From NCBI RefSeq assembly GCF_003259835.1, contig NZ_QLMI01000003.1, positions 248,001-312,000 of the forward strand: a DNA stretch of 64,000 bases. The letters are read 5' to 3'. This document shows, in pieces, positions 44,072 through 47,206 of the stretch; position 1 is the first letter of the stretch, and each line of letters begins with the position of its first letter. The notes below the pieces were generated by a model. It was not told the origin of the DNA. It did no database searches and saw nothing but the letters and a program-made list of their open reading frames with translations. This DNA is from Flavobacterium aquaticum (lineage in GTDB: Bacteria; Bacteroidota; Bacteroidia; Flavobacteriales; Flavobacteriaceae). Position numbers and translations under genes: made by a program.

Positions 44072-45970
44072 ATGAGTGACGCTATACAACACGAATGTGG
44101 AATTGCTTTACTACGATTAAAAAAACCGTTAGAGTTCTATAAAGAAAAATACGGAACTGCTTTCTATGGAGTACAAAAAATGTACTTACTTATGGAAAAG
44201 CAACACAACCGCGGTCAAGACGGAGCTGGATTAGCAAGTATTAAATTGGATGTAAATCCAGGTGAAAGGTACATCAGCCGTATTCGTTCAAACGACCCAC
44301 AACCTATTAAGGATATCTTCGCTCAAATTAACGACAGAATCAGTCGCGAGTTAGAAGAACATCCAGAATATCAAAACAATGTGGCGCTTCAAAAACAAAA
44401 TATTCCATATTTGGGAGAAGTGTTTTTAGGTCACGTTCGTTATGGAACTTTCGGTAAAAATAGCATCGAAAGTGTACATCCTTTCCTTCGTCAAAACAAT
44501 TGGATGCACCGTAATTTAATTGTTGCGGGAAATTTCAATATGACGAATGTTAAAGAGTTATTCCAAAACTTAATTGATTTAGGACAACATCCAAAACAAA
44601 TGGCCGATACCGTTACCGTAATGGAAAAAATCGGACATTTCTTAGATGATGAGGTTACCGAATTATACAAACACTGCAAACATGAAGGGTATTCTAAGCA
44701 AGAAGCTTCTCCGATAATTGGCGAACGATTAAATGTACAGCGTATTTTAGAACGTGCATCTCGTAATTTCGATGGAGGTTACGCAATGGCTGGACTTTTC
44801 GGTCATGGCGATTCGTTTGTTTTGCGCGATCCTGCTGGAATTCGTCCTGCTTATTTCTACGAAGATGATGAAATTGTAGTAGTCGCTTCAGAACGTCCGG
44901 TTATTCAAACGGTTTTCAATGTGCCTTTCGAAAAAGTTCAAGAATTAACTCCTGGAAGTGCTATTATTATCAAGAAAAACGGAAATGTTTCAGTTCAAGA
45001 AGTTAGAACTCCATTGATCAAAAAAGCATGTTCGTTTGAACGCATTTATTTTTCTCGCGGAAGCGATGCCGAAATTTACAGAGAGCGTAAAGAACTAGGA
45101 AAATTAATCTTCCCAAGTGTTTTAAAAGCTATCGATAACGATACCGATAATACGGTTTTTTCTTTTATTCCAAATACAGCAGAAACTTCTTTTTACGGTA
45201 TGTCAGAAGCGGCGCAAGATTTCTTAAATCAAAGAAAAGCCAAAATGATTATCGAGCAAAAAGATACGTTGACGGAAGACACGTTGAAAGAACTCCTTTC
45301 TGTGAAAATCAGAACGGAAAAAATTGCGATTAAAGATGCGAAATTAAGAACGTTTATTACCGAAGATAGTAGCCGTGATGATTTAGTAGCTCACGTTTAT
45401 GATGTTACTTATGGAGTAGTAAAACCAACCGATAATTTGGTAATTATTGATGATAGTATTGTGAGAGGAACTACCTTAAAACAAAGTATCATTAAAATGA
45501 TGGATCGTTTACATCCAAAGAAAATTGTTGTAGTTTCATCAGCACCTCAAATTCGTTATCCAGATTGTTACGGAATTGATATGGCGAAATTAGAAGGATT
45601 AGTAGCTTTCAGAGCAGCTTTAGATTTATTAAAAGAACGCAATTTATATCATATAGTAGAAGAAGTATATCAAAAATCGAAAGCACAAGAAGATTTTAGT
45701 GATGCTGATGTAGTGAATTATGTAAAAGAAATTTATGCGCCTTTCACCGATCAAGAAATTTCAGATAAAATTGCCGAAATGCTTACGCCAGATGACACCA
45801 AAGCAGAAGTAAAAATCATTTACCAAACGGTGGAAGATTTACATAAAGCATGTCCGAAAAACTTAGGAGATTGGTATTTCACAGGAGATTATCCTACAGA
45901 TGGAGGAAATCGTGTAGTAAATCGTGCATTCATGAATTTCTATGAAGGTAAAGATGCACGAGCATACTAA
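44072..45970 (+). CDS. purF: Amidophosphoribosyltransferase, long form
   Basis: The 632-residue protein has an Ntn-type glutaminase domain whose nucleophile is Cys9 in HECGIALL, after an eight-residue propeptide that must be removed. QHNRGQDGAGL and VFLGHVRYGTFG follow. The phosphoribosyltransferase half has the PRPP loop LVIIDDSIVRGTTLKQSI (about 460-477). It makes phosphoribosylamine, the first step of purine synthesis. It is longer than the E. coli enzyme (505) through inserts and a C-terminal extension ending near CPKNLGDWYFTGDYP. purN lies 2 kb upstream. The small-RNA array starts just after its stop. Confidence 0.94.
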   Translation: MSDAIQHECGIALLRLKKPLEFYKEKYGTAFYGVQKMYLLMEKQHNRGQDGAGLASIKLDVNPGERYISRIRSNDPQPIKDIFAQINDRISRELEEHPEYQNNVALQKQNIPYLGEVFLGHVRYGTFGKNSIESVHPFLRQNNWMHRNLIVAGNFNMTNVKELFQNLIDLGQHPKQMADTVTVMEKIGHFLDDEVTELYKHCKHEGYSKQEASPIIGERLNVQRILERASRNFDGGYAMAGLFGHGDSFVLRDPAGIRPAYFYEDDEIVVVASERPVIQTVFNVPFEKVQELTPGSAIIIKKNGNVSVQEVRTPLIKKACSFERIYFSRGSDAEIYRERKELGKLIFPSVLKAIDNDTDNTVFSFIPNTAETSFYGMSEAAQDFLNQRKAKMIIEQKDTLTEDTLKELLSVKIRTEKIAIKDAKLRTFITEDSSRDDLVAHVYDVTYGVVKPTDNLVIIDDSIVRGTTLKQSIIKMMDRLHPKKIVVVSSAPQIRYPDCYGIDMAKLEGLVAFRAALDLLKERNLYHIVEEVYQKSKAQEDFSDADVVNYVKEIYAPFTDQEISDKIAEMLTPDDTKAEVKIIYQTVEDLHKACPKNLGDWYFTGDYPTDGGNRVVNRAFMNFYEGKDARAY

Positions 45971-46045
45971 AAAGTGTGTTTCATCGATTTTTTATTTCGT
46001 TTAACAATTTTTTTATAGTAATACAAAATCTCGCCATACTTTAGC

Positions 46046-46128
46046 TCTACCAGAAAATTAGTAGGTTAAGTTTTATGGTAGATTTGGGGCAAAAAGGGTA
46101 CGCAATGCGTGCCTTTTTTTTGCCCCAA
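46046..46128 (+). ncRNA. Putative small RNA, copy 1
   Basis: Downstream of TACTTTAG (46037-46044), the likely transcript starts near 46046-46050. A first stem pairs CTACCA (46047-46052) with TGGTAG (46076-46081). The end is a long terminator in which GGGGCAAAAAGG pairs with CCTTTTTTTTGCCCC around the inner TACGC/GCGTG hairpin. It could encode 21 residues from ATG 46075, but the third copy breaks this frame. The family is not recognised. Position 75 bases after purF leaves open that it is a purF 3' product instead of an independent RNA. Confidence 0.65.
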
Positions 46129-46242
46129 AATCTGTTTTAACAAAAATTGAAGACCAATTTTGCTCAAAAAGCGCATTTCATCGACTTTTTAATTCGTTTA
46201 ACAATTTTTTTATGCAAGCATAGTATCTTATACTACTTTAGC

Positions 46243-46325
46243 TCTACCAAAAAATTAGTAGGTTAAGTTTTATGGTAGATTTGGGGCAAAAAGGGTACGC
46301 AATGCGTGCCTTTTTTTTGCCCAAA
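46243..46325 (+). ncRNA. Putative small RNA, copy 2
   Basis: This copy has TACTTTAG at 46234-46241, the stem CTACCA (46244-46249) with TGGTAG, and the same terminator loop as copy 1 with one C fewer in the outer arm. Its core differs from copy 1 at a single base over about 60. The upstream box is conserved but the 22-base spacer is different from copy 1. Confidence 0.65.
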
Positions 46326-46451
46326 AATGAATGAACTTGTTAGAAAAAGTAAAAAATTAACTTATTTTATTCTTCAAAAACGCATTTCATCGACTTTTTG
46401 TGTTGTTCAACAATTTTTTTCGTCATATATATAAGAGTGTTCTACTTTAGT

Positions 46452-46530
46452 GCTACCAGAAAATTAGTAGGTTAAGTTTTATGGTAGATTTGGGGCAAAA
46501 AGGGTGAAAGCAATTTCACCTTTTTTATTT
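46452..46530 (+). ncRNA. Putative small RNA, copy 3, with re-paired terminator
   Basis: This copy has TACTTTAG at 46443-46450, CTACCA at 46453-46458 and the common core. The terminator is different: GGGTGAAA pairs with TTTCACC in place of the TACGC/GCGTG arms, and the outer GCCCC arm is missing. Change on both arms with pairing kept is what selection on RNA structure would give. A stop codon follows after only eight codons of the small frame, which argues against a peptide product. Confidence 0.65.
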
Positions 46531-46545
46531 TAATAAACTTGGTAA

Positions 46546-46582
46546 CAAAAAAGGCGAAGATTTTTCAATCCTCGCCTTTTTT
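46546..46582. terminator. Bidirectional terminator between RNA array and sod
   Basis: AAGGCGAAGATT pairs with AATCCTCGCCTT (one mismatch) with A and T runs on either side. It can end sod transcription on the minus strand and any readthrough from the array. Confidence 0.85.
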
Positions 46583-46600: not shown

Positions 46601-47206
46601 TTATTTTGCTGCAGCAAAACGTTTAGCAACTTCAGTCCAGTTAATTACATTAAAAAACGCTTCCATATAATCAGGACGACGGTTTTGATAGTGTAAGTAG
46701 TAAGCATGTTCCCAAACATCCATTCCTAGGATTGGTTGTCCGCCACAAGCAACACCTGGCATTAACGGATTGTCTTGGTTTGGAGTAGAACAAACTTCTA
46801 ATTTGCCATCTTTTACACATAACCAAGCCCATCCTGAACCAAAACGAGTAGCTCCCGCTTTAGCAAATTCTGCTTTAAAAGCATCAAATGAACCAAATGC
46901 AGCATCAATAGCAGTAGCTAATTCACCTGTTGGTAAACCACCACCATTTGGCGACATAATTTCCCAAAACATAGTGTGGTTATAATGTCCACCACCGTTG
47001 TTACGAACTGGCATGTTGTTCATGTCTAAATTTTTCATCAAATCTTCAATAGATTTTCCTTCTAAATCTGTTCCAGCAATTGCTGCGTTTAAGTTGGTAA
47101 CGTAAGCATTGTGGTGCTTAGAATGGTGAATTTCCATTGTTCTCGCATCAATATGTGGTTCTAATGCATCGTATGCATAAGGTAATTGTGGTAATTCAAA
47201 AGCCAT
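46601..47206 (-). CDS. sodA: Superoxide dismutase, Fe/Mn type
   Basis: The 201-residue protein begins [34 protein letters not shown] with metal ligand His27, then HYNHTMFW and the C-terminal ligands in [16 protein letters not shown]. The [13 protein letters not shown] segment is typical of the family. It removes superoxide in the cytoplasm. Iron and manganese cannot be told apart by eye, so the symbol could also be sodB. It has a clear two-element promoter and is convergent with the small-RNA array. Confidence 0.96.

Follow-up and report, generated by a model that had tools for sequence, protein, structure and literature searches.

Tandem predicted small RNA genes between purF and sod in Flavobacterium aquaticum and their putative antisense targets in the Flavobacteriaceae

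The DNA of F. aquaticum analysed here, a stretch of 64,000 nucleotides referred to as the window, carries between purF and sod three copies of a unit which quite probably encodes a multi-copy trans-acting small RNA (sRNA) that is activated together with its own targets and blocks their translation, giving an incoherent feed-forward loop. At the sequence level, the sRNA genes are conserved, a box of one type precedes both the sRNA and a predicted target, and the RNA is complementary to two unrelated translation starts; a translation block, a regulator and co-activation are what we infer, with repression as the most likely direction. No published description of the array was found in the open-access literature searched.

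The three complete units lie at positions 45979-46526 of the window as direct copies on the forward strand. In register, the repeat copies span 45969-46131, 46166-46328 and 46375-46537, the second and third being 88% and 71% identical to the first. In each unit, an upstream box (TTTCATCG...) is followed by the promoter element TACTTTAG, the core hairpin with UUAGUAGGUUAAG in its loop, the linker AUUUGGGGCAAAA and, last, an intrinsic terminator with a T-run. The box of copy 1 (45979-46005; G000:C3:293979-294005), located by the box pattern, is a 20-bp direct repeat of the form TTTCATCG...TTTAAC, whose consensus and 20-bp period come from 279 copies. It is followed by the -7 element TACTTTAG at 46037-46044, visible in the sequence and as a peak of conserved columns, which we take to be of the Bacteroidota TAnnTTTG type, and by the predicted sRNA at 46046-46120, placed by its fold and a covariance model match (G000:C3:294038-294122) with putative ends, in which the hairpin UCUACCA/UGGUAGA with the loop motif precedes linker and terminator. 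By the same kinds of evidence (box pattern, sequence, fold and covariance model match), copy 2 has its box at 46176-46202, its -7 element TACTTTAG at 46234-46241 and its predicted sRNA at 46243-46316 (G000:C3:294235-294319); in copy 3 they are found at 46385-46411, 46443-46450 and 46452-46526 (G000:C3:294444-294529). The terminator stem is common to copies 1 and 2; that of copy 3 differs and is still paired. Judged from the sequence, each RNA would be about 70-80 nt long. The single-strand fold energies of copies 1, 2 and 3 were below those of 200 dinucleotide shuffles each, with z-scores of -4.61, -4.59 and -4.13. The first-pass annotation had assigned two stems to the core; there are indeed two stems per unit, but one is the core hairpin and the other the terminator.

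Two further observations concern the sequence around the terminators. Within 46083-46129 of copy 1 and 46280-46326 of copy 2, a stretch (TTTTTGCCC...) after the T-run is complementary to the linker, in 13/13 nt in copy 1 and 12/13 nt in copy 2, so that the linker would be buried in a transcript reading through the terminator; copy 3 is without this stretch. Furthermore, the gap between array and sod contains, at 46547-46582, a strong hairpin which has runs of A and T and resembles a two-way terminator.

A covariance model was built from 52 of 63 distinct sequences, the degenerate L017 copy and ten sequences chosen by eye being excluded. In an alignment of 148 matches, fitted to this model, 97.2% of the pair cells were paired and changes on both sides were seen in 14 of 17 pairs, nine of them in the terminator and five in the core hairpin, the latter each contributed by one or two sequences. 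The excluded L017 copy (1818-1903) is an extra one at the edge of its array with little left beyond TTAGTAGGTTAAGTTTTA, perhaps a decaying paralogue. Rfam release 15 gave no family above its gathering cut-off in the window. The best match below threshold was RmaA (41.1 against a cut-off of 57), which spans the linker, the terminator and the stretch behind it; this match and those to BTnc231, FopS and others were read as matches to terminators or A/T-runs.

The unit recurs far beyond the window, as the wider search proposed in the first-pass annotation revealed. A DNA query found it in 122 of 150 Flavobacterium genomes, and the covariance model in 320 of 397 Flavobacteriaceae genomes, representing 199 of 237 genera. 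The best E-value was below 1e-5 in 312 of the 320 positive genomes and weak (8e-5 to 0.009) in the remaining eight. Positive Flavobacteriaceae genomes had one to seven matches, which makes a control of dose by copy number plausible at the sequence level; in some other genomes the family search found a second locus. The order-wide search outside the Flavobacteriaceae returned solely matches with E-values of 0.001-0.009, which were taken as noise. In the genome of F. aquaticum itself, strong copies amounted to three only, all at the array locus, and are thus not dispersed; an exact-pattern scan of viral contigs gave no matches. The possibility of a mobile repeat, raised beforehand, found no support in this single locus, in the missing viral matches or in the synteny of 69 of the 80 listed loci.

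The upstream neighbour of the array is purF (44072-45970, forward strand, with its stop at 45970) and the downstream, convergent one the superoxide dismutase gene sod (46601-47206, reverse strand), both taken from their open reading frames. The set of named loci comprises at least 80; among the 80 listed, purF was directly upstream on the same strand in 69, with a median distance of 129 nt from its end to the core, and sod was downstream on the opposite strand in 63. Stretch ends account for 6 of the 11 exceptions for purF and 5 of the 17 for sod, the others having different neighbours. The names of these 80 loci are, as we take them, those of Flavobacteriaceae, except for three assemblies named to phylum or class only and one 'Lentimicrobium'. 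The latter (L161), a contig of a metagenome-assembled genome with a typical Flavobacterium-like purF-array-sod locus, is probably mis-binned. The neighbours are the conserved address of the array. The position had suggested a connection with purine synthesis or with oxidative stress; this is unsupported, the targets predicted below being an envelope lipoprotein and a small ORF that lie elsewhere in the genome. The idea of a three-copy array of small-RNA-like genes, in turn, was borne out by the shared promoter box, the compensated conserved structure and the conserved synteny.

The first lead to a target came from the box pattern, which among 31 genomes pointed to a gene in G005 whose leader approximates the reverse complement of the sRNA core. 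Its product is a CAP-domain protein (Pfam PF00188, 45.4 bits against a cut-off of 21.1) with a lipoprotein-like start, of the SCP/YkwD-like type, and the same kind of box precedes many CAP lipoprotein genes. The exposed loop of the sRNA (UAAGUAGGUUAAG or UUAGUAGGUUAAG) and the linker (UAGAUUUGGGGCAAA) are its most conserved letters; in much of the genome set examined, loop plus linker are antisense to the CAP mRNA leader as far as the start codon. The typical leader within the genus reads TTTGCCCCACAATCTACTTTAAACTTAAACTACTA-N-ATG; upstream of it lie a promoter element similar to TATGTTTG and the box. In other genera, the typical leader CCAAATCTAAATAACCTACTTATG or a variant can pair with linker and loop while the stem strand between them is skipped, and the start codon is included in many loci. 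Several TTYATCG half-sites, in both orientations, were seen within ~200 bp upstream of CAP genes in other genera (e.g. L372, L373).

For comparison of the complementarity, 373 starts of other genes in the named loci, homologous genes included, served as controls; their duplex energies had a mean of -14.5 and a minimum of -30.1 kcal/mol. The genus offered 61 CAP places, paralogues included, of which one lacked a usable ATG and was dropped from this comparison; 37 of the remaining 60 were below all 373 controls (-34.7 to -47.9 kcal/mol), and 38 of the 61 scored above all 50 shuffles. The strict box pattern fitted 37 of the 61. All 30 loci with the best query matches in the genus pair at one CAP gene at least; of 20 loci picked lower in the match list, three pair, and for the window's own CAP gene and 16 others of these 20 the duplex energy was not below the controls, two of them being intermediate (-26.8 and -24.9 kcal/mol). 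Outside the genus, the 27 best-scoring CAP loci had a mean of -24.3 against -14.3 kcal/mol for controls (Mann-Whitney p 1.8e-15). CAP leaders from genomes that carry the sRNA (55 loci, the 27 above among them) had -25.3 kcal/mol and 2.4 half-sites per promoter, against -15.6 kcal/mol (p 6.7e-7) and 0.08 half-sites (p 6.1e-7) in genomes without it, the latter set comprising 12 places in 7 of the 13 genomes with a CAP gene only, from about four genera, and L497 and L498, whose start codons were probably mis-picked, being retained in the leader comparison. The sRNA and the CAP gene also show a strong co-occurrence: among the 150 genomes of the genus, 104 had both, 18 the sRNA only, none the CAP gene only and 28 neither, and the corresponding counts in other genera were 252, 65, 13 and 64, with the eight weak-match genomes (E 8e-5 to 0.009) counted as sRNA-present and absence defined by stricter filters; since both these counts and the leader tests treat related genomes as independent, their significance is overstated. 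The sRNA thus occurs without a CAP gene in 18 of 122 genus genomes and 65 of 317 others, and therefore other targets must exist.

Net cofold energies of three predicted pairs of sRNA and leader, two of them calculated with a family-type sRNA, were -24.9, -24.8 and -31.8 kcal/mol, and values in this range support that pairing is feasible. A test for clean covariation of the loop base with the leader base was negative within the genus: T is the loop base in each of the 18 genomes checked, and five of their leaders have a non-matching base.

A second candidate target, again suggested by its sequence, is a small ORF. A search of 199 genomes with the leader pattern gave 27 places in 24 genomes, compared to 6 for the reversed control; 8 were CAP leaders, 15 were starts of one kind of small ORF and 4 were read as chance. 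For the small ORF, the pattern fell within the beginning of the coding sequence, and the actual site lies immediately before it. Thirteen of the 15 starts, from thirteen genera, were inspected and an ORF of 42 residues (MNIATNLPEQPTNDES...) was intact in 12, whereas in L394 the agreement was limited to the first dozen residues. The 12 loci with the 42-aa protein (MNIATNLPEQPTNDESKFKETLKENLQFLKSLVYLTKKIFML; L374, L376, L377, L379, L381, L384, L385, L388, L389, L393, L395 and L396) have a box and an antisense leader; in the clearest cases the leader (TTTCCCCAAATCTACCATAAACTTAAAAACTTATG) is a near-perfect antisense of the sRNA core, with the box upstream. Differences among the 12 sequences numbered 385, 149 and 699 at the first, second and third codon position, and this variation at the third position indicates that the ORF is coding. 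Two members scanned against Pfam and NCBIfam had no match. In Flavobacterium, 28 of 150 genomes had weak, short matches to the protein (best E 8.7e-4), which was read as absence. Paralogues with promoters and terminators of their own and a conserved structure, the marks of multi-copy trans-acting sRNAs in general, are thus found together with conserved antisense sites in the leaders of the CAP and 42-aa ORF mRNAs, but not in that of the window's own CAP gene.

Upstream of the 279 distinct copies, two conserved half-sites, GCnnTTYATCGR and GCnnTTCATC, are 20 bp apart. The box is a direct repeat of TTYATCG with a 20-bp period, as is evident from the autocorrelation of its profile, which peaked at 20 bp (1.97) followed by 0.66 at 21. 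In the arrays, the -7 element is located 32 or 33 bp past the second half-site (125 of 139 pattern placements). In CAP genes of the genus this distance is 12 or 13 bp (22 of 25), shorter by roughly two turns of the helix. Published LytTR sites are repeats of 9-11 nt with spacers of 11-13 nt (PMC4847170) just upstream of the promoter (PMC6193735), and a period of 20 bp corresponds to 9 plus 11 nt by the former definition. The sites described for YpdB and HdrR/BrsR (PMC4847170, PMC6193735) are direct repeats laid out as in the present box, and the YpdB half-site GGCATTTCAT is similar to its GCATTTCATCG. Since the box has this geometry, we propose, by resemblance, that its activator is probably a LytTR-type response regulator. 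The genome of F. aquaticum encodes five LytTR proteins; at their loci (L214-L218) the pattern gave no box before the LytTR gene, one match in L215 sitting elsewhere. The box patterns matched 100 times in 31 genomes against 85 for the reversed control and 62 times in 10 genomes against 55; being barely above these controls, they were used for leads and not as a regulon list, and ten stretches were inspected by eye. Among the stretches seen, a 28-bp version of the box with a 21-bp period is located directly upstream of a gene for a secreted metalloprotease in G000 (L250 2609-5665, contig C11), G012, G009 and G011 (L250, L251, L252 and L253 in all); three of these genomes have exactly the same sequence and the fourth almost the same. 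The metalloprotease of G000 is M12B reprolysin-like with a T9SS tail, and the short leader of the metalloprotease gene had no obvious pairing with the sRNA. The secreted M12B metalloprotease may be a further member of the same regulon.

In the mechanism we favour, an activator that binds direct repeats would occupy the TTYATCG box before each sRNA copy and before the target gene, and one signal would switch on sRNA and target together. The loop of the sRNA would make the first contact and the linker would then lengthen the duplex with the leader. This pairing would keep the ribosome off the target mRNA, and the resulting incoherent feed-forward loop would scale in strength with the copy number of the array. 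That pairing with the CAP leader instead activates the target, the mRNA being protected or opened, is unlikely in our judgement. A coherent loop would follow simply from the shared activator box, the CAP leader of G051 can fold to some extent by itself (-9.8 kcal/mol), and two mRNAs predicted as targets of another Flavobacterium sRNA, Rfp18, were reduced when this sRNA was deleted (PMC9723704). However, the predicted duplex reaches the AUG and covers it in many loci of other genera, two other leaders fold weakly alone (-3.2 and -4.8 kcal/mol), and pairing of FopS at such positions in Bacteroides keeps the ribosome off the mRNA and represses translation (PMC11697453).

The proposed translation block by antisense pairing has no evident counterpart at the CAP gene of the window's own genome, which, as in its clade, still has a promoter box but lacks an antisense leader: its duplex energy is -14.2 kcal/mol, against the control mean of -14.5, and the net cofold energy is -3.3 kcal/mol. 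A scan of 30% of this genome (851 kb, 3006 starts) gave no convincing target, the strongest start (-32.5 kcal/mol) belonging to a doubtful 70-aa frame; a 14-nt antisense match at G000:C8:134794 was dropped since no clear gene start lies behind it. As the core is kept in this clade although the CAP leader is unpaired, some other partner probably holds it constant. An RNA with protein binding or sequestration as its main role, for which the antisense matches to some leaders would be secondary or incidental, would fit a core that is nearly constant even where no pairing target is known, and arrays raise the dose of the RNA; we consider this quite improbable, because the leaders carry the reverse complement of the core and not a copy, and the leaders of sRNA-free genomes are without the match.

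It is very unlikely that the CAP leader motif is an element in its own right, with a role in, for instance, translation, and that it matches the sRNA by inherited coincidence. CAP leaders are mutually related and the loci are, therefore, not independent, yet the best matches lie outside all 373 controls, a comparable antisense leader precedes the unrelated 42-aa gene and the 12 CAP homologues without the sRNA lack the match. Functionless repeats or terminator debris, to which the weak Rfam matches, mainly to terminators, might point, deserve hardly any credence, being contradicted by the family-wide conservation, the synteny, the conserved promoter box and the compensatory changes.

The array has parallels in known systems. 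In the regulator-controlled siblings Qrr, csRNA and NmsR, the several sRNA genes are near-identical and are transcribed from separate promoters that share one type of activator site, as in the array, whereas phyla, regulators and sequences are unlike those of the present array. Within the phylum, FopS of Bacteroides thetaiotaomicron (RF04319) is a group of multi-copy paralogous sRNAs of ~65-70 nt that pair near the start codon of surface-protein mRNAs (PMC11697453), a likeness which for the present RNA is predicted from sequence and energy. The 14 FopS members in that genome are intergenic, antisense or 3'-UTR-derived, and they pair through their 5' part and bind the RRM protein RbpB, as far as described in the same source (PMC11697453); the present family differs in being a tandem array at one locus, in its predicted pairing via hairpin loop and linker and in sharing its box with a target. 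The covariance model of FopS, RF04319, does not match the present RNA, with 17.4 bits against a cut-off of 56 at 46476-46532. Rfp18 of Flavobacterium psychrophilum is a genus-conserved sRNA with experimentally supported effects on protease mRNAs (PMC9723704). Its third stem-loop is predicted to pair with metalloprotease mRNAs (PMC9723704), and the present RNA has two stem-loops. By its description, Rfp18 is the nearest published RNA in the genus.

A more far-reaching and rather doubtful reading is that of a family-wide module in which one LytTR-type two-component system drives both the dose-tuned array and, behind the same box, envelope and secreted proteins that the array restrains, namely the CAP lipoprotein, the 42-aa protein and perhaps T9SS metalloproteases. 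Such a module would resemble LuxO/Qrr of Vibrio, and pairing by a kissing loop plus linker could leave the sRNA stem formed.

Little has been charted of post-transcriptional control in Bacteroidota other than Bacteroides, and the Flavobacteriaceae are not known to have Hfq. In about 80% of the sampled genomes of this family, an sRNA family was found that combines a near-constant core with predicted targets and a box that suggests a class of regulator. The array, a target reporter and the candidate regulators are a ready-made experimental system for the use of sRNAs in Flavobacteriaceae, and the predicted pairing gives a hint to the role of the widespread CAP-domain lipoproteins. If real, the family-wide module would give the Flavobacteriaceae their first core sRNA circuit.
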